Assembly (NCBI GenBank): GCA_029881555.1
Contig: JAOUMI010000012.1
Location: forward strand, 1-12,078
DNA: 12,078 nt
Direction of reading: 5' to 3'
From: Candidatus Bathyarchaeota archaeon
GTDB taxonomy: Archaea > Thermoproteota > Bathyarchaeia > Bathyarchaeales > Bathyarchaeaceae
The number at the start of each line of letters is the position of its first letter. The first letter of the stretch is position 1. Below the pieces are notes generated by a model, which was not told the origin of the DNA, ran no database searches, and was given only the letters and a program-made list of their open reading frames with translations. Shown here piece by piece: positions 591-11,947 of this stretch. Made by a program: the position numbers and the translations under genes.

Positions 591-1685
591 TTAGCCCTCT
601 GAGCCCTTTCCGAAGGGTCCGAAAAGGAGTCGACGCACGTTTGGTCGTGTAACCATTTTCAACCCACACTTTTGAGCTATAAAGCGCTGAATGCCGATCA
701 CCTCGTTGGCGGTGAAAGTTGAGAATATGTGAGCCAAGCGCAGGGTTTCTGGGTAACTCTGAAGGAACAGATCGTTCCCAAGGAGTCTTTGTACCGCTTC
801 TAAACCCTGTTCCCACGGAATCTCTCTGTCGATGTCCAAGCGGAAGGAGCAACTCCCTTCGGTGAACCTCGCCACATAAAGGTCTCCTAGAAAGCGCACT
901 TTGCTCGAAACATAGGTGGGGAAGCCGTTGATCTGGAGTAGACTGGGCGGTGGAGACTTCCACGCTAGGTCGGTCAGTAGGTGTCCGGAAAGCCTTAGGC
1001 GCGTTATCTTGGAGAACGCCAAGACCGTGTTTAAGCGGTTTCTTGCCACTTCTAGAAGCTGAGAAACGACGTTCACTGGGCTGTCTATGGTTCCAGCGGT
1101 TAGAGAACCGTCCCAAAGAATGACGCTGCGGTTTGAGGAACAGCTGACGCCCATCTGAAGCCATCGTTCGAGCAGGTTGCACATTCGATTCTGCATGTTT
1201 ATGAGGCTAGGGGCGTTGGTGTCCCCTGAAACTTTGAAGTAGTATTGTCTGAGCATGCCGTATATTTCCCTCTTGTTTTCCTCTGTTATGTGAAAGGGAA
1301 ATGGTCCGAGGCGGAGGCACCGGTATCGACTTTTTTCCTTCCAAACTATGGCTCCCCTCACGGCGCAAATCACTCCTGTCTTGGTTTCTCCAACATTTAT
1401 GCTGGAAACGTCCACGGCAACGACTGTGGTGTAGTCCAAGGCGGGTTTTAGGGGTATGGGTCGTAATGTGAAGGAGTCGTGATGTTGAAAACCAAGTGTA
1501 ATGCCTTCAGAATTTTCTTTAGAGGGCCCATAAGATGTTATTTCGTGAGGCTGAAAACATTCTCCGTTGATTTTCTTCATGGACCTGAGGCTTAGCTCGA
1601 TGAATCGTTGCGGGAGTTGCAGGTCTTCTAGGGATTGAGGAAAATTATATTTTGGTGTTGTTGCATAATGGAATTGTTCAATCAC
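591..1685 (-). CDS. nurA: NurA-family 5'-3' nuclease
   Basis: A protein of about 364 residues, a usual size for NurA. Numbered from the TTG at 1688, the visible nuclease motifs are: AVDVSS at 91-96 with the first metal-binding aspartate D93; LWDGSL at 191-196 with D193; AFSK at 224-227; and the C-terminal SYPETLRLAH with H320. These match the RNase H-like NurA fold, which uses manganese to trim DNA ends together with HerA. The HerA gene follows 2 bp downstream, the classic pairing. The start is ambiguous: TTG at 1688 is directly followed by GTG at 1685. I prefer GTG, because a GGTGA ribosome binding site ends 6 nt before it but only 3 nt before the TTG. Mre11 and Rad50 are not in the window. 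The function call is firm at family level; activity is inferred. Confidence 0.88.
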   Translation of the reverse strand: MIEQFHYATTPKYNFPQSLEDLQLPQRFIELSLRSMKKINGECFQPHEITSYGPSKENSEGITLGFQHHDSFTLRPIPLKPALDYTTVVAVDVSSINVGETKTGVICAVRGAIVWKEKSRYRCLRLGPFPFHITEENKREIYGMLRQYYFKVSGDTNAPSLINMQNRMCNLLERWLQMGVSCSSNRSVILWDGSLTAGTIDSPVNVVSQLLEVARNRLNTVLAFSKITRLRLSGHLLTDLAWKSPPPSLLQINGFPTYVSSKVRFLGDLYVARFTEGSCSFRLDIDREIPWEQGLEAVQRLLGNDLFLQSYPETLRLAHIFSTFTANEVIGIQRFIAQKCGLKMVTRPNVRRLLFGPFGKGSEG

Positions 1686-1691
1686 CAATAT

Positions 1692-1696
1692 TCACC
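1692..1696 (-). promoter_or_regulatory. Ribosome binding site of nurA (decides GTG over TTG)
   Basis: On the minus strand GGTGA matches part of the AGGAGGTGAT complement of the 16S tail. It lies 6 nt upstream of GTG 1685 and 3 nt upstream of TTG 1688, so the GTG has the more normal spacing. Confidence 0.5.
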
Positions 1697-1723
1697 AATT
1701 TGCAATTAAAGGAGGATATGGGT

Positions 1724-1732
1724 ATTTAAATG
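1724..1732. promoter_or_regulatory. Shared TATA-like element between nurA and the divergent winged-helix gene
   Basis: TATTTAAAT is nearly self-complementary and sits between the two divergent genes. Reading right, its centre is about 52 bp before the ATG at 1780, giving a leader near 25 nt. Reading left, the expected start of transcription is near 1702, giving a leader of about 15 nt that still includes the GGTGA site. Archaeal TATA boxes sit about 25 bp before the transcript start, so one element could serve both directions. Seen: the sequence and distances. Inferred: promoter use. Confidence 0.45.
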
Positions 1733-1779
1733 TTGCGCATGAACAACATGTTCAATACAATAAACAATAAGGGACCACT

Positions 1780-2190
1780 ATGTCAGAAGAACTAAAACCC
1801 CCAATCCGCCTGAAAATGAAAGTTGGAGACATGGAGTTCGAAATCGAGTGCAGAGAGGACCAGCTTGAAGGGGCTGTCAAAAGAATTTTATCAACAATCA
1901 AGGAGTATGCGAGGGAGCCGATAGTGATGCCCGAGAGAGGGTTGCCTCCTGCCAGAGGTGAAACCTGCAAGGGACTCATACAGAAACTTTGGTCAGAGGG
2001 TTGGTTTGCATCTCCCAGAGGACTCGGCGAAGTGCACAGTGAAATGGCACGGAAGGGCTATCATTACGACCGTACTGCAGTGGCACACGCCCTCATCGAC
2101 TTGGTTAAGGATGGCCTACTAACCAGAGAGGGGAGACCTCGCCGTTACCGCTATGCCCAAAAGAGACCTCCGCTGACCAGTCAGGTTTGA
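1780..2190 (+). CDS. Small protein with beta-beta-alpha N-terminus and putative winged helix (family pair A, copy 1)
   Basis: Not a family I can name; 136 residues, ATG start. Residues 9-41 read as two short strands (IRLKMKV, MEFEIEC) and an amphipathic helix. A linker rich in proline and glycine (45-60) leads to a second domain at 62-128 that looks like a winged helix: helices around 63-75, 82-92 and 99-112, then a basic wing (RPRRYRY). It pairs with the gene at 3159-3572: C63, W75, PR at 79-80, HY at 95-96 and LV at 108-109 line up with C67, W79, PR84-85, HY100-101 and LV113-114, with a one-residue gap. It is divergent from nurA and overlaps the convergent gene at 2181 by 10 bp at the stops. 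A DNA-binding role is inferred from the basic wing only. No strong ribosome binding site is seen before the ATG. Confidence 0.8.
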   Translation: MSEELKPPIRLKMKVGDMEFEIECREDQLEGAVKRILSTIKEYAREPIVMPERGLPPARGETCKGLIQKLWSEGWFASPRGLGEVHSEMARKGYHYDRTAVAHALIDLVKDGLLTREGRPRRYRYAQKRPPLTSQV

Positions 2191-2687
2191 ATCTTTTCTC
2201 GAATCTTGACTAAGGTTTCTTCTTGAAGGCGTTTGATTCCAATTGTGGTTATTTTATAATCGCCTTCCCCGTTTTTTGTTGCCATTCCTTCCCGACAGAG
2301 TTCGCCCAGTCGTGTGCTCGTAATTTTGGAGCTTTTTCCAAGCCGAGTTTGCAGTTCTTCCTTGGAGGAGGAGTCTCTGCCTAAGCGTCCGAGTCTATGA
2401 CCTATATGAGCGGCTAAGAGATAGAGCTGAATTGTTTCGCTGTCCGTGAGCTCTTGTTTGGAGATGAGAAGCTCTGGACCTTCAGGAGCAATGGCGATGA
2501 CGCCTTCAACGTCTTCGATAATCTTTTGAAGATCAACGGTTAGCATCACTTTGTGTGTCAGGTTAAAGGAAGGAATCATTTGGCTGAAGAATCGGTTCAC
2601 GCTCACCCAAACATCATTTACATTGCCGACAAACGTCTGTTCAACATTCCTGTACTTGACATGAACCGTTATCTTCTCTTCACTCAA
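2181..2687 (-). CDS. Small protein with beta-beta-alpha N-terminus and putative winged helix (family pair B, copy 1)
   Basis: Unrecognised family; 168 residues from a TTG at 2687. A longer reading from GTG 2738 would add 17 residues, but these lie wholly inside the upstream gene and look unlike the family. The TTG lies 1 nt after the upstream stop, has GAGGG 7 nt before it, and gives MSEEKITVHVKY, which matches the relatives' starts. Residues 5-38 form the short N-terminal strand-strand-helix unit. Residues 60-71 (VEGVIAIAPEGP) and 80-84 (LTDSE) match residues 56-67 and 75-79 of the gene at 2689-3156. From 84 to about 156 it reads as a winged helix: helices at 84-97, 107-117 and 121-134, then a wing (GDYKITTIG) and a final helix. 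It is the last of three tightly packed minus-strand genes and overlaps the convergent plus-strand relative by 10 bp. A role in transcription or DNA binding is only inferred. Confidence 0.78.
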   Translation of the reverse strand: MSEEKITVHVKYRNVEQTFVGNVNDVWVSVNRFFSQMIPSFNLTHKVMLTVDLQKIIEDVEGVIAIAPEGPELLISKQELTDSETIQLYLLAAHIGHRLGRLGRDSSSKEELQTRLGKSSKITSTRLGELCREGMATKNGEGDYKITTIGIKRLQEETLVKIREKIQT

Positions 2688-2688
2688 C

Positions 2689-3156
2689 TCATTGCCCTCG
2701 AAGCCTAGCCAGCAACTCTTCCTCGATCCACCTCTCACCTTGTACGGTTAACTTGAACTCCGGTCTAGCAGGGTCTGGTTTGAACACCAGTCCCCGCTTG
2801 GTCATCTCGTTGAGGCGCGCAGGCACCATTGACTTGATCCCGCTTGAACTTAGCAGTCGGCTGATTTGGGCTGCGGTGCTGACTTTTTCTTCAGAAGCGT
2901 ATAAGACCAGGCCGATGGCTTCGTAGTGGGTTAGCCTCTCCCGGCTGGTTATTACAGGTCCCTCCGTGGTGAGTTCGACGATTCCCTCAAGCTGTGCTTT
3001 TATTGGTGGAGCAAATTTTGTGGAGACTAGGCTACTTATTTCGCTCATGAACTGGGGGGGCATGGTTCTCAGCGTCTCAAGGATTTCTTGGGCGTTGTCT
3101 CCCTCCAAAACTATATCGCCGAAAGGAGCTTTGATCTGCACCCGAATCTTTCCCAT
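2689..3156 (-). CDS. Small protein with beta-beta-alpha N-terminus and putative winged helix (family pair B, copy 2)
   Basis: Unrecognised family; 155 residues. The ATG at 3156 is 2 nt after the previous gene's stop and has a very good ribosome binding site (AAAGGAGG, 7 nt upstream). Residues 3-40 are the shared N-terminal unit: strands IRVQIKA and DIVLEGD, then a helix from 22 to about 31. Residues 56-67 (LEGIVELTTEGP) and 73-86 match the neighbour at 2181-2687. A winged helix follows at about 79-137: helices at 77-87, 93-103 and 109-121, then a wing (EFKLTVQG), and a C-terminal helix rich in glutamate and arginine. The gene sits between its two relatives with gaps of 2 bp and 1 bp, so all three are probably on one transcript. 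No transmembrane segment, signal peptide or enzyme motif is visible. Confidence 0.8.
   Translation of the reverse strand: MGKIRVQIKAPFGDIVLEGDNAQEILETLRTMPPQFMSEISSLVSTKFAPPIKAQLEGIVELTTEGPVITSRERLTHYEAIGLVLYASEEKVSTAAQISRLLSSSGIKSMVPARLNEMTKRGLVFKPDPARPEFKLTVQGERWIEEELLARLRGQ
2695..2699 (-). promoter_or_regulatory. Ribosome binding site supporting the TTG start at 2687
   Basis: GAGGG lies 7 nt before the TTG, inside the end of the upstream gene. It favours the short reading of the 2181 gene over the 185-residue reading that starts at 2738. Confidence 0.55.
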
Positions 3157-3158
3157 GT

Positions 3159-3572
3159 CTACGCCTCCTTTCCAGCCAAAACGTACACGTAGCCCCTATC
3201 CGTCTTCCACCGTTTAATCCCGCCCTTCCTAACCAGCCACACGAGCACCCCGGAGAGGGTAGTAGGTGGATAGTGTAATGCATTCGCTTTCATGGCTTCC
3301 GCCAGCTCGGGCAAGGTTCTGGGCTGCTGTTTTCCCCAATCCGTTTCCAGCAACTTCAAAACTGCCTCACTGCAGTTCGCGGAAGACGAGATGGTGGGAT
3401 AGAGTGTGGGAGTAGATTGAGGCGGATTTACGCTGATGTTAACTGAATCAAAAGCTTTAGAAACGCTTGCCACCAGACGCGGAAGTTCCTCGATGGTTTT
3501 TATCACTTCCTCACGGGTTCCGCTAATCTCTATCTCATGTTGACCGAATTTGACGCGAAGTGAAAATGGCAT
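3159..3572 (-). CDS. Small protein with beta-beta-alpha N-terminus and putative winged helix (family pair A, copy 2)
   Basis: Unrecognised family; 137 residues, ATG start with GGAG about 10 nt upstream. The N-terminus (SLRVKFG, HEIEISG, then a helix from 19 to about 30) is the clearest copy of the shared strand-strand-helix unit. A serine/proline-rich linker (43-65) leads to a winged-helix-like domain at 66-132. Conserved positions with the plus-strand gene at 1780 are C67, W79, PR84-85, HY100-101, LV113-114 and the aromatic YVYV wing strand at 128-131. It is the first of three packed minus-strand genes and lies 108 bp downstream of the pyrophosphatase, so it could be read from that promoter or from a weak one of its own. 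Pair A lacks the VEG...EGP stretch that marks pair B, yet the N-terminal unit is alike in both. Function unknown. Confidence 0.8.
   Translation of the reverse strand: MPFSLRVKFGQHEIEISGTREEVIKTIEELPRLVASVSKAFDSVNISVNPPQSTPTLYPTISSSANCSEAVLKLLETDWGKQQPRTLPELAEAMKANALHYPPTTLSGVLVWLVRKGGIKRWKTDRGYVYVLAGKEA
3164..3171 (-). promoter_or_regulatory. Strong ribosome binding site for the gene at 2689-3156
   Basis: AAAGGAGG on the minus strand overlaps the last codons of the upstream gene and lies 7 nt before the ATG. It fixes the start and implies coupled translation of the two genes. Confidence 0.7.
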
Positions 3573-4279: not shown

Positions 4280-6178
4280 TTAAACGAACTCTTTCAACCT
4301 TTTTTTCAACGTCTCGCTAACCCACTCAGCCTTGACTCGTCCTCGAGTTTTCTTCATAACCATGCCCATAAGGGATCCAAAAGCGCCTTCTTTTCTCTCC
4401 TCTATCAAGCTCCTGTTTTCTCTCATCAAGCTGTCTATCATTTTTTCCAGCTCCTCTTGCGCAATCATCGTTAATCCCAGAGTTTCAACAGCCTCCTTCG
4501 CTGTAGTGCCCTCATGCTTCGACAGCCAAGTGATGACCTCCGGTATCGCCTCCTTAGCCGTTTCTCCGGCATCCACAAGACGAAACAGCTCTCTCAACTG
4601 CTCATCACTAACCCTCTCAACCTCGACTCCATCGCGCCTCAACGCTTTCATAGTCTCCGTCAACGCAACCGCTATGACGGTGGGAGAAACCTTGGTTTCC
4701 TGAGCCAGCTTTTCAAACAAATCAATGTACTCTGAATCCAGAATTTGCCTCACCAACTTCAGATTTAAACCGTACTCTTCGGTTAAGCGCCTCATCTTCT
4801 GCTCCGGCAACTCCGGAAGACAAGCGCGCAACTTTTTCACATACTCTTCGCCTAACTGGATTGGAGGAACATCTGTCTCCGGATACATTCGAGCAGCTCC
4901 GGGCCTCGGACGCATGTATCGGGAAGTCCCATCTGGGTTTGCCGCACGTGTTTCCTCGGGAACACCTCTCACCGCCTCTCTGGCTCTCTGCGTCACGGCT
5001 TTCAAGGCGTCGGTTGCGTTTTCCACACTATCCGCCACGAATACAACGGCGTCTTGGGGTTCCGCTTTCAAAAGCTTCTTGAGATCATCTGTTTCTTTGG
5101 CGGTTACTCTGTAGGCTGGAAGCTCATCCGTGTGAAAAATCCCTCCTACCCTCCCCCAGAAATGAGCGATATCCGCTATCTCCATTCCAAGCCTCATGCC
5201 AGGCGCTAGCTCCATCTTGAGCAGCCCAGCAAATTTAGGCAATTTGACCGCCAGCACTTGCTGGTTTTGGCTGAGCGCTTTTTGGATAACCCGACACTCT
5301 GTTTGTTTAAAGGTAGGGGTGACGCCCATGAACTCGTCTTTGATGCTCTCTTCTGTTACTCCGCGCTTTTTCAATTCATCCTTTATCTTGAGGAGGCCAA
5401 GCTGGCGCTGAACCTCGTACTCAACAACTTTCGAGACCAGTTCGAGCTGTTGAACTCCCTTAATTTCTGTTAGGGCTCCGTCGCGAATGGATATGTTCAG
5501 GTCTTGGCGAATGGTTCCTAGTCCTCGCTTAACCCTTTGTGTGGCCCTCAGGGTTCGTCCGATGGCTAAAGCGGTTTCTTCCGCTTCCTGAGGAGAGTAT
5601 ATGACCGGCGCTGTGGTGACCTCGATGAGAGGGATTCCGAGGCGGTCGATTCGGTATCGGATGATGGAGTCTTTTTCTCCCATCTTTCTAGCAGCGTCTT
5701 CTTCAAGGCTTACGTGTTGTATAGGAACCTTTTTCCCTTCGATGTCCAGTTCCCCGTCAAGAGCAATGACGCATGTACGCTGAAAACCTGTGGTATTCGA
5801 CCCGTCTATAACGGTTTTGCGCATCACGTGAATCTCATCCAAGGGTTTGGCATTCATCATAAGAGCAGCTGTGAGAGAGATTTCCACTGCCTCTTGATTA
5901 AGATCATGGGGAGGCTCCTCGTCCATCTCTACGAGGCACGAGGTTTCCCTGTTCGCCTCGTACAGTATTTTCACTCCCTTCTGAAACTCAAAGAAGGCGG
6001 CCGGATCGATCTGACCCAACTCGCTCTGGGTTGGCCTTAGTCTCCTCAGAAACGCGATTTCTGGTTCTTCTTTGAAGAGTTTAGGCTGGCAAGAGCAGAA
6101 GAGTTTGGTCTCTGTGTCAAGTTGCTGATGCACCTCAAGCCCGGTTTTCAGTCCGACTTTGGAATAATCGATGTTCAT
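4280..6178 (-). CDS. gatE: Glu-tRNA(Gln) amidotransferase subunit E
   Basis: GatE phosphorylates the glutamate on mischarged Glu-tRNA(Gln) with ATP and then amidates it with ammonia passed from GatD, giving Gln-tRNA(Gln); archaea use this in place of GlnRS. The 632-residue length is normal. The N-terminus has the GatB/GatE signature (TGLEVHQQLDTETKLFCSC, residues 12-30). The cradle domain continues with RIDRLGIPLIEVTT at 176-189 and RQDLNISI at 224-231. Residues about 290-405 hold the AspRS-like GAD insertion that distinguishes GatE from bacterial GatB. The cradle resumes at RYMRPRPGAARMYPETDVPP (420-439). The helical and YqeY-like tail that binds tRNA runs from about 455 to 632 and ends with GSLMGMVMKKTRGR. 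The ATG at 6178 is 8 bp after gatD, with GAGGAG in the end of gatD as a likely binding site. Intact. Confidence 0.97.
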   Translation of the reverse strand: MNIDYSKVGLKTGLEVHQQLDTETKLFCSCQPKLFKEEPEIAFLRRLRPTQSELGQIDPAAFFEFQKGVKILYEANRETSCLVEMDEEPPHDLNQEAVEISLTAALMMNAKPLDEIHVMRKTVIDGSNTTGFQRTCVIALDGELDIEGKKVPIQHVSLEEDAARKMGEKDSIIRYRIDRLGIPLIEVTTAPVIYSPQEAEETALAIGRTLRATQRVKRGLGTIRQDLNISIRDGALTEIKGVQQLELVSKVVEYEVQRQLGLLKIKDELKKRGVTEESIKDEFMGVTPTFKQTECRVIQKALSQNQQVLAVKLPKFAGLLKMELAPGMRLGMEIADIAHFWGRVGGIFHTDELPAYRVTAKETDDLKKLLKAEPQDAVVFVADSVENATDALKAVTQRAREAVRGVPEETRAANPDGTSRYMRPRPGAARMYPETDVPPIQLGEEYVKKLRACLPELPEQKMRRLTEEYGLNLKLVRQILDSEYIDLFEKLAQETKVSPTVIAVALTETMKALRRDGVEVERVSDEQLRELFRLVDAGETAKEAIPEVITWLSKHEGTTAKEAVETLGLTMIAQEELEKMIDSLMRENRSLIEERKEGAFGSLMGMVMKKTRGRVKAEWVSETLKKRLKEFV

Positions 6179-6186
6179 TTGCTTGT

Positions 6187-7515
6187 TTACTCCTCTTCTT
6201 CTGGGGCGGTCCTAGGCGAGATTTCGTGGGCTATGTTTGTGATGAGAAGCTTTTTGACTTCTTCAACATCTTTTGTCTGTCCTAGGGCCCACATGAGCTT
6301 CACCAAGGCGGTTTCGGGTAGCATGTCTTCAAGCGGGATCACTCCCATTGCTAGAAGGTCTCGACCCGTGTCGTAAACGTTCATGCCCAAGCGCCCCCAA
6401 ATACACTGGGAGGTCATTGCAACAACCACATTGTTTTTAACAGCTTGCCTGATCGCTGAGAAACAGTAACTGCTCACGTGGCCCAGCCCTGTTCCCTCAA
6501 GAATTATGCCTCTGCAACCTTCTTCGACGTACCACTTGAGGACTTTGGGGTTCAAACCTGGATGAGACTTGACCAGAGCCACTTTCTCATCAAAGTCTGG
6601 TTTTAAGACCAGTTTTCTTGAGAGGTCGCGTTGGCGATAATCTTCCACCAACATAGTGATCTTCTCGTTTTCCATCCTAGCGAGCGGTAGGGCGTTCACG
6701 GACTGAAAAGTGTCCCGCCGACTCGTGTGGCATTTTCTAACCTTGGTTCCCCGATGGAGCACGATAAAAGTGTCTGAAATCGTTTCGTGCATAACTAAGA
6801 CCACCTCGGCAAAAGGAGCCCATGCAGCCGCCCTCACCGCTCCTATCAGGTTTGTTGCGGCGTCTGAACTGGGGCGGTCAGCGGATCGTTGGGAACCCAC
6901 CATTATCACGGGTACCGGCAGGTTTTGAAGTGCGAAGCTTAACGCGGCTGCGGTGTATGCCATCGTGTCGGTTCCGTGGGGCACCACAACTCCTGCTGCG
7001 CCTTTTTGGATGTGTTTGGCAACGGTTTTGGCTGCTTCTGACCAGTGTTTTGCTGTGATGTTTTCGCTGTAGAGGCTGAAGAGAATCCTAGCGTCTATTG
7101 TGGCGACTTCCGAGAGTTCTGGAACGACGCTGTAGAGGTCGCTTGCGGAGAGGGCAGAGCGCACTCCCCCTGTTCTGTAGTCCACTCGGCTGGCGATGGT
7201 GCCTCCGGTGCTGATGATCGCCACTTTAGGTAGGCCGGGCTTTTGTTTTGGAAGCGGTGGCGGTGTGAAGGTTGGTTTAGTTCCTACACCGATTTTTTGG
7301 ATGTGTGTATTAGGGGTGACGCGGATTCCTACATTATAGCCGCTCTTCATCTTGATTACAACGTGTTTTTCATCGCCGTATTCGGATCGAGGGATAAGGA
7401 GTCCCTCGTAGGTTTTTGCTTCTTTTGTGACACGGATGAGGTCGCCGATTTCGGCGCCAGCTTTCCTAAGAACTTGTAACGTTTTTCCTTTATATCCTAG
7501 AAATCCTTCGCTCAA
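6187..7515 (-). CDS. gatD: Glu-tRNA(Gln) amidotransferase subunit D (asparaginase-like)
   Basis: GatD is the glutaminase half of the archaeal GatDE enzyme: it frees ammonia from an amide donor and channels it to GatE. The 442-residue protein is full length. Residues about 1-76 form the small beta-barrel found in front of GatD (GDLIRVT...YEGLLIP...KMKSGYNVGI). A proline-rich linker (81-95) leads to the L-asparaginase fold. Catalytic residues are visible: T103 in ISTGGTIAS, T182-D183 in PHGTDTMAY, and K261 in KCHTSRRDTF. The linker and barrel separate it from a free asparaginase. The start is TTG at 7515, with GGAG 9 nt upstream; no better upstream start is seen. It is the first gene of a minus-strand run that continues with gatE, with a TATA box at 7583-7593. 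Confidence 0.96.
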   Translation of the reverse strand: MSEGFLGYKGKTLQVLRKAGAEIGDLIRVTKEAKTYEGLLIPRSEYGDEKHVVIKMKSGYNVGIRVTPNTHIQKIGVGTKPTFTPPPLPKQKPGLPKVAIISTGGTIASRVDYRTGGVRSALSASDLYSVVPELSEVATIDARILFSLYSENITAKHWSEAAKTVAKHIQKGAAGVVVPHGTDTMAYTAAALSFALQNLPVPVIMVGSQRSADRPSSDAATNLIGAVRAAAWAPFAEVVLVMHETISDTFIVLHRGTKVRKCHTSRRDTFQSVNALPLARMENEKITMLVEDYRQRDLSRKLVLKPDFDEKVALVKSHPGLNPKVLKWYVEEGCRGIILEGTGLGHVSSYCFSAIRQAVKNNVVVAMTSQCIWGRLGMNVYDTGRDLLAMGVIPLEDMLPETALVKLMWALGQTKDVEEVKKLLITNIAHEISPRTAPEEEE

Positions 7516-7582
7516 ACTTTATTTCTCCAATTCTTATACTGTACCGCACTACTACTGCCTATAATCACTGTCTAATATGTTA

Positions 7583-7593
7583 GATATATAAAA
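7583..7593 (-). promoter_or_regulatory. TATA box of the gatD-gatE operon
   Basis: TTTTATATATC on the minus strand fits the archaeal TATA consensus and lies in an AT-rich gap. The expected transcript start is near 7562, giving a leader of about 47 nt that contains the GGAG ribosome binding site of gatD. Confidence 0.55.
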
Positions 7594-7651
7594 TTAAATT
7601 GGAGTTTTTGACTGTTTGGCTTCACTTGTGTATGGTTGGGTTGACCTTTGT

Positions 7652-7912
7652 CTATTTTATTTTTAAATATTGCTTTAGTGCGTTGGTTACTGTCTCGGAC
7701 AATGTCAATTGTTTCTTGTGCATTCTTTTTGTAACTTCTTCCCATAATTCGTAATCTATGGCGAAAGCTACGTCTAGATATTGTCTAGGTGTTTTCTTGG
7801 TCTGTTCAGTTTCCAACACTTGTTCCGTTCGCAACGGTTTATCCCTCTGTACGGACCGAATAGTCTTGGGGGTGTGTGAGTGTTCGGTCTCAACTGAAAA
7901 AAGGTTGGACAC
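7652..7912 (-). CDS. Small ribbon-helix-helix (CopG/Arc-like) protein with disordered N-terminal tail
   Basis: 86 residues from a GTG at 7912. The first ~43 residues are charged and polar with no predicted fold (many T, E, K, R). Residues 44-85 look like a ribbon-helix-helix domain: a strand (LDVAFAI), a first helix (DYELWEEVTKRMHKK) and a second helix starting at the TLSETV turn and ending NALKQYLK. Such domains form dimers that insert the paired strands into DNA, as in CopG-type repressors and antitoxins. No toxin gene lies beside it: the next genes are gatD on one side and a secreted protease on the other, so an antitoxin role has no support here. The start is uncertain, as no clear ribosome binding site precedes the GTG and an internal start near residue 32 is possible. 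The domain assignment is by pattern. Confidence 0.7.
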   Translation of the reverse strand: MSNLFSVETEHSHTPKTIRSVQRDKPLRTEQVLETEQTKKTPRQYLDVAFAIDYELWEEVTKRMHKKQLTLSETVTNALKQYLKIK

Positions 7913-8078
7913 TAAGATAAGGGTTTTTGATTATCACTTATGATTTGGAAAGTGTAGCTGTTTTATTTCGAAATGATCTGTTTTAGAAAGAGTGATTTCA
8001 CCGAGTCTTCTGGCATACCTATTTGCGTGTGCAATGAATGTAGAGCAGAAGGAAATGGCTGTATTCTCCGAAGAAAGG

Positions 8079-10949
8079 TTACATGGTTTTTCCGTAGTTT
8101 TTGCTCAGCTCGAATAGGTCAGAAGCATCGATCTTGCCGTCGCCGTTGAAGTCGCAGTTTGGGTTCCAGTTTGGCTTTAAAGAGTCGCAAGCATACGCTT
8201 TGCTCACGTCAGACAAGTCAGAAGCGTCAACCGTGCCATCACCATCCACATCACCTATAATAGTCACGAAAACCGTGTCGTCGACGAATGTGTTGTTGGC
8301 TGTGTCTCTTTCGCGTGGGACTGGATGGGCGTAAGCGCTTATGGTATAGTTGCCGTGGGGAATGCCGGTTGTATTCCATGTGAAGAGGATGGTTGTGGAG
8401 TTTCCACTTGTTAGCGTTACATTTTGTATCCCAATAGTGACCTCGTCCCCGATTACTGTCGCATTTAGATCTGCGTAAGCTGTAACATTGAAAGTTTCAG
8501 TACTCCAGCCTTGGTTTATGATAGTTACGTTGGTGATTAGAGAGCATCCTTGTCCAACCACAGTTTTGGGAAGAGTAATGCCGCTAATCGCGATATTGGG
8601 AGGAACAAGCCAATCTACAGAATTAATTATTAGAGTATCTCTTTCGGATTGGTTTAGGCAAAAAATTGGGAACGCATAATACACAACAGATCCGTTGCCA
8701 GTTCCGGTTCCATCAAACACCGTGACAGCAGTCAAAGACGTGTCTGTGTAACGGATGACTTCGAACCCTCCATTTGTTGGGACAACACCATCATCATATG
8801 ATGGGTCTGAAAGCCATGTGAAGCTTGTTGGCAAATCTTGAGTTACTGGATGAGTTGGAGCGGTTACCGTTAATCCGAGTGCTTCGGTGTAGTCGACCTG
8901 AAAGATTGCATGTGCCACATTGGTCATAAAGTTGTCTGTCTCATGGTTGTAAGCAACGTCTTCGCCTTCGAGGAGGATATTTCCGCCCTGAGAGAGATAA
9001 GATTCTAATGTTGCCGCGTCGGTTTGGTCAACGGCCCAATCATAATAGTCGCCACAAGTCCAGATTACAAGCTTTGATTTGATTAGGCAGTCTAGGGGCG
9101 GGTTGCCCATAGATGATTCGCTCCAAACTGCATAGTCGTAGCCCGCAACCGTCAGAGCTGATTCGAACTCTGGAAGGCTGGTTCCATAAGCCCATGGGCG
9201 TCCGTCGTTGTCATCCACAATGAGGATGTCGGGCAGGTAGCGGGGCTCAATGATGACCCTCCAAGAAGGGTTCGCTGTGTCTGTGTTTCCTGCATTAGCT
9301 ATGATCAATGTCACATTCTCAAACGCGTCGTAAGACAGATCAACATACCCGTCTTTTTGAGCGTCGAGAGAAAATGTCTTGTTTGCAATCACTCCGCTTT
9401 TCTTCGTAGCGAGTATGACAAGGTAATTCGTTGTCAAGTCGAATCCATCGAAGAATATTCGGTAATCTTCTATTGTGGGATCCAACTTTAACGTTATGTA
9501 ATCCGTCGCCCACCTATCCATCCAAGCATCATAGTTCACGTTTCCCTGATCTATCACGACGTAGCCAAAAGGCAGAGCGGAAGCATTGTATTGGTATTCA
9601 AGCCATACTCCATCAAAGGTGGTTGTTCCAGTCAGGGTTGCTCTATAATCAGCGCCATCAACATACATGTTCTCCAGAAAGAAGTTTGCTATCGTAAATC
9701 GGCCAAATTCAATTAGTAAACTGGAACCTTTGCCGACTAAAACATTGTCTATCGCCGTAAGCCCGTCGGTTGTTTCCATTTCTTCCCAAATATCCCTGAT
9801 TACGACGTCTCCGAAGTCCTCAGACAAACGCTTGGCGAAAATGAAGTTCCCATACGCATGAGAATCTTGGGTTGATTCCAAACCCAGAACATCAGATCTC
9901 TGAAACCAGTAGGGAAGGTATTGATAGTTGTCATTTACATCTGGGTAGACTTCATCTTCCATGTATGTCGCCGTCGTCTCCATCCACCAGCTTTCCTCAA
10001 GAGTGTCATAATAAAATTGTATGGCATGGAAGAATTCGTGCGCCGCCGTGACCTGCATAGACGGTAATTGTGGTGTAGGAAATCCCACATAATCGTTGTC
10101 TACTCCAATGTAACTATAATAGGAAAGGCTGTCGATCCCGCTTTCTGGCATTGCATACCCGTAAAAACTCATGTTATAAACGAAAACATCGTATCTTCCG
10201 TCTGGGTTTCGTCCGTTAAGGTCGTTGGGTTCGGATGAGTCGTCGGGAGGCTGATGGAATCCTCTGATGACTACCTCAAAGTTCCTGACGTATTCAAAGA
10301 TCTCCCCAAAATTTTCGACGTAGTCCGGAACGCCGTTAGTATTGGCGTCTGACGGTGGCACCGCGTCTGCAACGTTCCCGCCATCTGAACCATTCGTCCA
10401 ATGTATTACGAAATTTGTTGTGTTGTAAAGTTGCGGAAGTAGATGCTGCTTTTCGTCAACACCCCCCTCCACATCAGTTGGCCTTTCAAGAACGAAGTCT
10501 AACTGGTTTTGTGTTTCGGAACTCAGCTTGTTCCATTGCTCCTTTATCTCCAAGAGTAACATTGTGCCGCTTTTTCTGTAAGCCTGTACTTCTTCCTGAG
10601 ACAAAGCGTATTCCGTGTTAGATAGTCTTGTTGGATCAAAAACAGCCCATGTCTTATACAACATATATAGATCAACAGATATTTTCCCAGACAAATAGTC
10701 TGCCTCCAGCCTTTGCAAACCATCTGATGAGGACCGCAAAAGTGTATTATGTACGAACCCATCCGAACTTCTTTGCTCAGCCGTATCTAAGGCAGCCCGC
10801 GAAACAATTGAAGGCTCTCGTGAACGCTCATTAACGGGGACACGCAAATCCGTTAACATCCCAGAAGTGTGTTGCACATATGTTGCAAAAACCGAAAACA
10901 ATAAAAGACCCGTCATAAACAAAGCCAAACTCTTTATTCCCATCTCCAT
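8079..10949 (-). CDS. Secreted multidomain zinc metalloprotease with C-terminal dockerin
   Basis: 956 residues, exported. A Sec signal peptide spans about 1-30 (hydrophobic SLALFMTGLLLFSVFATYV). After a pro-region, residues about 170-470 carry a gluzincin-like protease core: HEFFH at 304-308 with the zinc-binding histidines and catalytic glutamate, and WWMETTATYMED at 321-332 with E324 as a likely third zinc ligand. This resembles the MXAN_6640-type putative metalloproteases. Residues 573-781 (ILIVDDNDG... to SVDWL) look like a class I glutamine amidotransferase-like or ThuA-like fold, with no obvious catalytic Cys-His pair. Residues about 784-890 match a CARDB-type adhesion domain (IINQGWSTETFNVTAYA). 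The end is a type I dockerin with two calcium loops, GDVDGDGTVDASD at 899-911 and DFNGDGKIDASD at 933-944. Many N-x-S/T sites suggest glycosylation. The ATG at 10949 has AGGAAAGGAAG before it; a second ATG at 10943 is possible. No cohesin partner is in the window. Confidence 0.9.
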   Translation of the reverse strand: MEMGIKSLALFMTGLLLFSVFATYVQHTSGMLTDLRVPVNERSREPSIVSRAALDTAEQRSSDGFVHNTLLRSSSDGLQRLEADYLSGKISVDLYMLYKTWAVFDPTRLSNTEYALSQEEVQAYRKSGTMLLLEIKEQWNKLSSETQNQLDFVLERPTDVEGGVDEKQHLLPQLYNTTNFVIHWTNGSDGGNVADAVPPSDANTNGVPDYVENFGEIFEYVRNFEVVIRGFHQPPDDSSEPNDLNGRNPDGRYDVFVYNMSFYGYAMPESGIDSLSYYSYIGVDNDYVGFPTPQLPSMQVTAAHEFFHAIQFYYDTLEESWWMETTATYMEDEVYPDVNDNYQYLPYWFQRSDVLGLESTQDSHAYGNFIFAKRLSEDFGDVVIRDIWEEMETTDGLTAIDNVLVGKGSSLLIEFGRFTIANFFLENMYVDGADYRATLTGTTTFDGVWLEYQYNASALPFGYVVIDQGNVNYDAWMDRWATDYITLKLDPTIEDYRIFFDGFDLTTNYLVILATKKSGVIANKTFSLDAQKDGYVDLSYDAFENVTLIIANAGNTDTANPSWRVIIEPRYLPDILIVDDNDGRPWAYGTSLPEFESALTVAGYDYAVWSESSMGNPPLDCLIKSKLVIWTCGDYYDWAVDQTDAATLESYLSQGGNILLEGEDVAYNHETDNFMTNVAHAIFQVDYTEALGLTVTAPTHPVTQDLPTSFTWLSDPSYDDGVVPTNGGFEVIRYTDTSLTAVTVFDGTGTGNGSVVYYAFPIFCLNQSERDTLIINSVDWLVPPNIAISGITLPKTVVGQGCSLITNVTIINQGWSTETFNVTAYADLNATVIGDEVTIGIQNVTLTSGNSTTILFTWNTTGIPHGNYTISAYAHPVPRERDTANNTFVDDTVFVTIIGDVDGDGTVDASDLSDVSKAYACDSLKPNWNPNCDFNGDGKIDASDLFELSKNYGKTM

Positions 10950-11755: not shown

Positions 11756-11947
11756 TTACTCTTCCAGGGGTTCTTCAAAGGGTTCTATAGTCAGTTTCTT
11801 GTTCCCGATCTTAAATGACACTTTAACTCTCACCGAAGACTCTGTCTTAAATGGAAACATTGAATCAGTCGCCATGTCTAATGGTAGATAGATCAGGTAT
11901 TTGCCGTCAGCCCTTCTGAACAACCTTCCTTTACCAACATTGACCAC
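11756..11947 (-). CDS. AbrB/SpoVT-like small archaeal protein
   Basis: 63 residues from a GTG at 11947. A near-perfect ribosome binding site (AGGGGGTGAT) ends 3 nt before the GTG, with its GGGGG core 7 nt away. The sequence has the swapped-hairpin pattern of AbrB-type domains: a short basic strand (GKGRLFRRADG), the strand KYLIYLPLD, a short helix (MATDSMFPF), and the strand pair SVRVKVSFKIGNKKLTIEP, then an acidic tail. AbrB-type proteins dimerise and usually bind DNA as regulators or antitoxins. This one has no recognisable toxin beside it, so its role is unknown. A TATA-like stretch at 12023-12031 upstream could drive it with a leader of about 55 nt. The residue pattern and start signal make a real gene likely; the fold call is by pattern. 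Confidence 0.75.
   Translation of the reverse strand: MVNVGKGRLFRRADGKYLIYLPLDMATDSMFPFKTESSVRVKVSFKIGNKKLTIEPFEEPLEE

Follow-up and report, generated by a model that had tools for sequence, protein, structure and literature searches.

The window analyzed here, a 12,078-base stretch of Candidatus Bathyarchaeota DNA that is the entire contig JAOUMI010000012.1 of an 841-kb assembly (about 71% complete), carries four small genes, designated A1, B1, B2, and A2, next to genes for NurA and HerA. herA and nurA lie on the minus strand, A1 follows on the plus strand, and B1, B2, and A2, again on the minus strand, are tightly packed; to their right lie open reading frames (ORFs) that we take to encode pyrophosphatase, GatE, and GatD. 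The first-pass annotation of the window had placed the four adjacent ORFs correctly, and only the start of B1 was revised: the GTG-initiated ORF at 2181 to 2738 exceeds the likely gene, and a TTG at 2685 to 2687 agrees with the relatives and lets B1 begin one base from the B2 stop. The window NurA falls below the cut-off of PF09376, and a relative (L215:6181-7236) passes it with 23.1 bits. Among 43 aligned NurA sequences, D93 and D193 are invariant and E174 is at least 90% conserved; these are presumably the catalytic acidic residues. A relative of the window herA (L102:12343-14022) matches Pfam DUF87.

Table 1. Features of the window discussed in the text
Feature	Position	Strand	Description
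herA, N-terminal part (contig end)	1..588	-	Walker-A-type GKKETGKS; start codon inferred
nurA, divergent type	591..1688	-	Pfam NurA 18.8 bits, cut-off 21; D93, E174, D193 retained
A1-nurA intergenic region, 91 bp	1689..1779	.	Conserved regulatory element
TTTAAATA, TATA-like box of nurA, abutting the element	1723..1730	-	Read from the sequence
Match to Bathyarchaeia operator pattern TGNNCATGCRCAAYA	1731..1745	-	Sole match in this assembly
Inverted repeat TGAACATGTTGTTCA (nurA strand), part of candidate operator	1740..1754	.
A1	1780..2190	+	Beta-beta-alpha unit (~residues 8-42) and BlaI/MecI-like winged helix (~60-128); nurA is divergent neighbor; candidate dedicated nurA-herA regulator
B1	2181..2687	-	Beta-beta-alpha unit, hairpin (EGP), and winged helix; tail-to-tail with A1
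B2	2689..3156	-	Architecture as B1; AlphaFold model
A2	3159..3572	-	Beta-beta-alpha unit, variable linker, and BlaI-like winged helix; heads the A2-B2-B1 run
gatE and gatD	4280..7515	-	Names presumed; common neighbors upstream of A2-B2-B1

A1 and A2 are homologous over their full length (hhalign probability, 97; E = 9e-11; 120 columns), as are B1 and B2 (probability, 98; E = 7e-14; 151 columns), so the A-B-B-A pairing proposed for the four genes was confirmed. When the N-terminal unit alone was compared, profile to profile on larger alignments, the probability was 95.8 for A1-B1 (E = 7.6e-9), 95.5 for A1-A2, 94.3 for A2-B2, 93.8 for A2-B1, 58 for B1-B2, and 46 for A1-B2, and in each of the six pairs none of 100 profiles with permuted columns scored as high as the observed comparison. 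A single profile of this unit, built partly from the same proteins, recovered 364 of the 365 A and B ORFs in the examined loci and, at E < 0.1, five other ORFs, four of which are relatives at the A2 position. The four proteins are one family, in which a common N-terminal beta-beta-alpha unit is joined to two kinds of winged helix, as the first-pass annotation had suggested. Its further idea of a local duplication was rejected. The A and B families stay separate across the 80 loci described below, and A1 and B1 are also present in other classes; therefore, the duplications behind A1/A2 and B1/B2 look ancient. In the AlphaFold model of B2 (pLDDT, 87.4; pTM, 0.67; N-terminal part less confident), predicted strands at residues 4 to 10 and 13 to 19 and a helix at residues 22 to 31 are followed by a second helix, a hairpin, and the winged helix. 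A further family with the N-terminal unit was seen at the A2 position beside gatE (L219:9018-9500, L241:6200-6721, L245:3587-4111, and L255:6353-6952); the A and B profiles gave no match to it at E = 1e-4.

None of the four proteins passed any family cut-off in Pfam or NCBIfam, the MarR- and PadR-type families for B1 and B2 included, and only sub-threshold or weak winged-helix matches were returned by Pfam, NCBIfam, PADLOC, and PHROGs. The family is without a name in the libraries searched, in line with the earlier statement that none was known. A1 and A2 score 15.2 and 16.6 bits against Penicillinase_R, short of the gathering cut-off of 22.6, and 51 of 60 A-type members match this family (PF03965) at E ≤ 1 (best, 5.5e-4). 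The A1 winged helix also matches the BlaI structure PDB 2g9w (E = 1.6e-4). In BlaI and MecI, the winged helix is N-terminal and is followed by a C-terminal dimerization part. A1 and A2 do not follow this order: the match lies at residues 75 to 126 of A1 and 73 to 131 of A2, of about 137, which makes the winged helix C-terminal, and the N terminus is the shared unit. Across 81 A1 sequences, the winged helix is nearly constant, with A100, H103, L105, R116, and G118 each conserved at 100%. The T62-C63 pair is conserved in 98% of these proteins (C63 codon, 1966 to 1968), and a redox or metal role for C63 is possible. The C-terminal domain of B2 is predicted to have a MarR/PadR/AspA-type winged-helix fold, with RosR also among the results of the fold search. 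Foldseek gave no match to the B2 model at E ≤ 0.001; the fold-search rows span residues 70 to 155 and barely cover the N-terminal unit, and thus no new fold is claimed.

An anti-phage defense island was considered and rejected from the gene context and PADLOC. At E = 0.01, no PADLOC model matched A1, A2, B2, or NurA, and B1 matched WH_III-A alone (E = 0.004); the HerA of L102 matches several PADLOC HerA models.

Relatives were collected with a B2 profile from named genomes, and 80 of 124 loci were kept, 74 of which are labeled Bathyarchaeota or its genera and six of which have other labels. A contig labeled Njordarchaeum (L141), on which B2 is 65% identical to that of the window, is probably misbinned and was excluded as evidence of spread. 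The 80 kept loci have a match to B1 in 59, to A2 in 48, and to A1 in 31. In 61 genomes, that of the window included, matches at E ≤ 0.01 (which include cross-matches between paralogues) were found for A1 or a paralogue in 46, for B2 in 56, for B1 in 51, and for A2 in 41. Among 398 genomes sampled from the phylum, 149 gave a match to the A profile and 95 to the B2 profile (E ≤ 0.001). The order gatD-gatE, A2, B, A1, nurA-herA, whole or partial, was found again in other classes.

The linkage of A1 to nurA is close. Window aside, nurA is the divergent neighbor of A1 in all 31 distinct relative A1 loci that were examined. Within L102 to L181, 29 of 31 A1 genes adjoin a divergent nurA, and the other two sequences stop at a contig end (L115) or an N run (L168). 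Within L203 to L262, 60 regions picked on A or B matches, 55 of 57 genes called A1 adjoin a divergent nurA; the exceptions (L209 and L219) are second copies at the A2 position. On the phylum scale, 109 genomes have a good A match among the matches listed; in 99 of them, an A gene is divergent from nurA at less than 300 bp, with a median of 112 bp between the matched stretches. This count used the A matches listed to E = 5.4e-14 (147 matches; 149 genomes matched overall) without three weaker listed ones and all unlisted ones, the listed NurA matches minus six of the weakest (G313, G252:C30, G141, G110, G188, and G408), and 50 selected B matches. The tie to DNA repair, which had been hinted at from the neighborhood alone, is therefore stronger than first supposed. 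The association with gatDE that had been noted alongside it also recurs, with gatE in 52 and gatD in 43 of the 80 loci (contig ends uncorrected; window excluded).

Passive synteny, in which the gene order would persist because these genomes rearrange slowly and not because of any functional tie, is one way to read such linkage. The flanking gatDE genes, which have no known role in repair, are conserved beside the four genes as well, and no functional reason was found for this frequent flank. However, A1 stays with nurA in genomes in which A2 or B2 lies tens of kilobases away (G314, G417, G275, and G370), B genes stay with nurA where A1 is missing, and A1 is also found beside NurA of the canonical type in seven regions (L208, L213, L214, and L223 to L226). 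Furthermore, A1 and nurA are jointly missing in genus g29 while B2 persists: of the 15 g29 genomes that the phylum sample lists, A1, nurA, and B2 are all found in three, B2 without A1 or nurA in 11, and none of them in one. Passive synteny thus seems very improbable. The g29 genomes with B2 but without an A1 or NurA match are G045, G048, G054, G057, G218, G224, G292, G325, G351, G358, and G366.

The intergenic region between A1 and nurA is conserved over 27 Bathyarchaeia sequences, in which a palindrome-like TTGTGCAT-N5-ATGCACAA immediately precedes the nurA TATA-like box; the palindrome is perfect in L120 and L125 and imperfect in the remaining ones. In loci from other classes, between one and three TTGnnCAw units are often present at this position, many of them spaced 9 bp, adjoining ATTTATAA-like boxes. 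All 28 matches to TTGNNCAANATTWATAA in 663 kb are at A1-nurA, 26 of them in the set of A1-nurA promoter segments and two in L243 and L254, outside that set, and the reversed control gave none. TTGNNCAW units numbered 98, compared with a shuffled mean of 10.9 (maximum, 22), and 44 were counted in 25 of the 27 Bathyarchaeia intergenic sequences (the two with long spacers were left out), against 5.6 on average (maximum, 13). An earlier candidate for the element, TTGNNCAANNTTGNNCAA, was discarded: with two mismatches allowed, the window contained only a single match to it, at the level of chance and not within the intergenic region.

The element is rare elsewhere. With matches assigned to A1-nurA by eye from their coordinates, 57 of the 58 occurrences of the tandem TTGnnCAw form in 663 kb (both strands counted) are at A1-nurA, as are 37 of the 45 matches to the Bathyarchaeia form in 61 whole genomes (control, 4) and 30 of the 41 matches to the general form in 80 whole genomes (control, 4). 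The remainder of the general form consists of five matches in 30 genomes chosen as lacking A1 and six elsewhere in 50 A1-bearing genomes. These other genomic matches look scattered, and there was no sign of a wide regulon. In L123, L137, and L147, the Bathyarchaeia pattern is located some 35 bases before the trimmed start of A1, within the A1-nurA region. Of 53 A1-nurA promoter segments, 38 have the strict form, 12 have a single unit only, and three have none. The three without a unit (L230, L240, and L251) belong to one genus and share an altered A1 recognition helix, GFDSTAVGH, which is suggestive, although it represents a single event.

The strict element was not found in any of 20 nurA loci fetched as lacking A1; in L305 and L310, the contig stops before nurA is reached, so that 18 of the 20 are informative on A1 or the element. 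The element, A1, and this nurA are present or absent together. The element is kept in loci where the fetched stretch shows no B gene (L239, L244, L249, L252, and L256), and it is not enriched in the A2-B2-B1 promoter (6 units versus 4.1 expected in 48 sequences). Because it is not enriched before A2 and is kept without B nearby, A1 is the best candidate for its reader. In several Bathyarchaeia loci (L109 and L121 among them), A2 is preceded by a different recurring string, near GTAAATTCTAAAAGG, which is perhaps the A2 promoter.

On balance, A1 is probably a dedicated, self-regulating repressor of nurA-herA, and B1, B2, and A2 are probably accessory winged-helix partners of HerA-NurA. A putative A1 dimer, or a row of dimers, would bind the palindrome-like TTGnnCAw element that abuts the nurA-herA TATA box in the shared divergent promoter. 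In archaea, the TATA-box region is occupied by TBP and TFB. A1 bound to an element that overlaps this site would repress nurA-herA and itself, and a signal that dislodges A1, DNA damage perhaps, would provide more resection capacity. The packed operon would supply B1, B2, and A2 as accessory subunits, with winged helices for contact to DNA and N-terminal units for contact among themselves or to HerA-NurA. DNA binding, a repressing instead of an activating effect, the inducing signal, and complex formation are our inferences from these comparisons.

The layout of the B genes differs between A1-bearing and A1-less loci. In A1-bearing loci, A1 is divergent from nurA-herA and the B genes are usually convergent with A1; in the seven regions with canonical-type NurA, they lie downstream on the strand of A1. 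In 12 of the 20 A1-less loci, B2-B1(-B1) immediately precedes nurA-herA and shares its strand, and B1-B1 precedes nurA-herA in two more (L306 and L307). In L312, B2-B1-B1-A2 precedes a canonical nurA-herA pair, and in L308, A2 and B2 are about 1.7 kb before such a pair. Four of the 20 are without a B gene, two of these being cut by contig ends. The 20 were chosen for lack of A1, many of them since B had already been seen near nurA, and thus 14 of 20 is not a rate. B and A2, which take the place of A1 beside nurA-herA in these loci, are most simply regarded as accessory DNA-binding subunits.

L215 (genome G077; positions 3 to 12750) has, on one strand, gatD-gatE-B2-B1-B1-A2-nurA-herA followed by a canonical NurA-HerA pair, an Mre11-like gene (Metallophos), and a Rad50-like gene (AAA_23), which from the sequence appears to be two resection pairs in one cluster. 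L222 (G064; 6776 to 8179) has a 468-residue ORF in which a HerA-like ATPase (DUF87 at residues 5 to 78) is joined through a coiled-coil-looking stretch to a C-terminal B-like winged-helix unit. Together with the packed, co-directional B genes before nurA-herA in the 14 partly preselected loci, the Mre11-like and Rad50-like genes in the L215 run and the fusion of a HerA-like ATPase to a B core in L222 could indicate that all four proteins are structural subunits of a larger HerA-NurA complex, for end recognition or for loading or gating of HerA; the element would then reflect autoregulation by an A1 subunit or belong to an unrelated factor. However, A1 is kept divergent, with a strictly local element, which is the layout of a regulator; the L222 fusion is known from a single assembly; and B2 occurs without a nurA match in 14 genomes. 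We therefore judge it unlikely that all four are structural subunits. In L217 (G249; 5674 to 7786), three ORFs of about 154 residues, two with weak matches to the B2 profile, lie beside an ORF that presumably encodes PCNA, and in L216 (G378; 7994 to 9480), a row of five small winged-helix-looking ORFs lies between B2 and a canonical NurA-HerA pair.

The resemblance of the winged helices to those of BlaI (the PDB 2g9w match), AspA, RosR, MarR, and PadR could instead mean that all four proteins are transcription factors, with A2, B2, and B1 controlling gatDE or other genes and with B linked to HerA-NurA by shared regulation only. The persistence of B2 where neither nurA nor A1 was found, as in genus g29, is consistent with such a role. 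However, TTGnnCAw is not enriched before A2, and the position of the B genes within the nurA-herA run of A1-less loci is more usual for partners than for regulators of distant genes. It seems quite improbable that all four are transcription factors.

Several observations weigh against A1 as a dedicated repressor with B1, B2, and A2 as partners. B2 has a match without a NurA match (E = 1e-6) in 14 genomes, 11 of them from g29, although a Pfam NurA match exists in G046, which is among the 14; B2 may therefore have a second role or be a remnant there. Because of these genomes, the dedicated-repressor reading, the structural-subunit reading, and the broader proposal described below each lose a little weight, and the assignment of all four proteins to transcription factors gains. 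The A1-less loci are not independent, seven being from genus g59, three from g53, and two from g48. The general pattern was not found at A1-nurA in 20 of the 50 A1-bearing genomes, the 12 promoter segments with a single unit lack the strict form, and the A2-B2-B1 promoter shows no enrichment. The patterns were derived from the very promoters used for the counts, so their weight lies in their rarity elsewhere. Finally, promoters without A1 also differ in layout, so the element may serve a different factor associated with this promoter.

A broader proposal, which we regard as rather doubtful, is that over much of the phylum HerA-NurA forms a bigger complex that regulates itself. A/B winged-helix subunits, joined to one another by their common beta-beta-alpha unit, would load or gate HerA-NurA on DNA ends, and A1, as a dedicated repressor of nurA-herA, might be titrated off its operator by these partners or by DNA ends, giving a local damage switch for resection.

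Elsewhere in the window, a 956-residue protein (8079 to 10949) has a signal-like start and two C-terminal DxDGDGxxDxSD-type repeats, which we take to be dockerin- or EF-hand-like. Two small ORFs (7652 to 7912 and 11756 to 11947) presumably encode a ribbon-helix-helix protein and an AbrB-like protein.

How archaeal HerA-NurA is activated and directed is described as elusive or poorly understood in passages of a review (PMC7690668) and of a HerA-NurA paper (PMC12977600), and these passages do not mention companion winged-helix genes or the element. No papers on the A/B genes were found in searches of the open-access literature, most subscription journals lying outside them, and the literature searched yielded no expression studies after DNA damage for organisms that carry A1-nurA-herA. 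The parts are of known kinds (a winged helix, a divergent regulator, HerA-NurA); their combination was not found in these searches. A companion family that is widely kept and includes a candidate regulator with a defined candidate operator, besides operon-linked partners, makes the control of HerA-NurA directly testable with two small proteins and 91 bp of DNA, and winged-helix proteins without names in Bathyarchaeia and related archaea gain a concrete working function.

BlaI and MecI bind a palindrome that overlaps the core promoter of divergent target genes. A1 resembles these Penicillinase_R (PF03965) proteins in its winged helix and in the palindrome-like element at a divergent promoter. 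It differs in that the A-type winged helix is C-terminal, after a beta-beta-alpha unit, in that the window proteins score below the Pfam cut-off, and in that the predicted target is a DNA-repair operon. Unlike pNOB8 AspA, RosR, MarR, and PadR, the B proteins have an additional N-terminal unit and the EGP hairpin. The proposed transcriptional control of herA-nurA by a winged-helix protein has a counterpart in Saccharolobus, in which, according to the accessible parts of these reports, the herA-mre11-rad50-nurA operon is induced in a DNA damage network centered on Orc1-2 (PMC10470591), a protein with a winged helix (PMC9738581); repair genes were not increased in an older UV study (PMC2246294, likewise in part). 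Orc1-2, an AAA+ protein, regulates globally and has dozens of targets, whereas A1 is small and apparently has one. The HerA-NurA-Mre11-Rad50 operon of other archaea has the same side-by-side NurA and HerA genes; the window contig ends inside herA, and L215 also includes the Mre11-like (Metallophos) and Rad50-like (AAA_23) proteins. Unlike those operons, the loci described here have extra winged-helix genes and a candidate dedicated promoter element.

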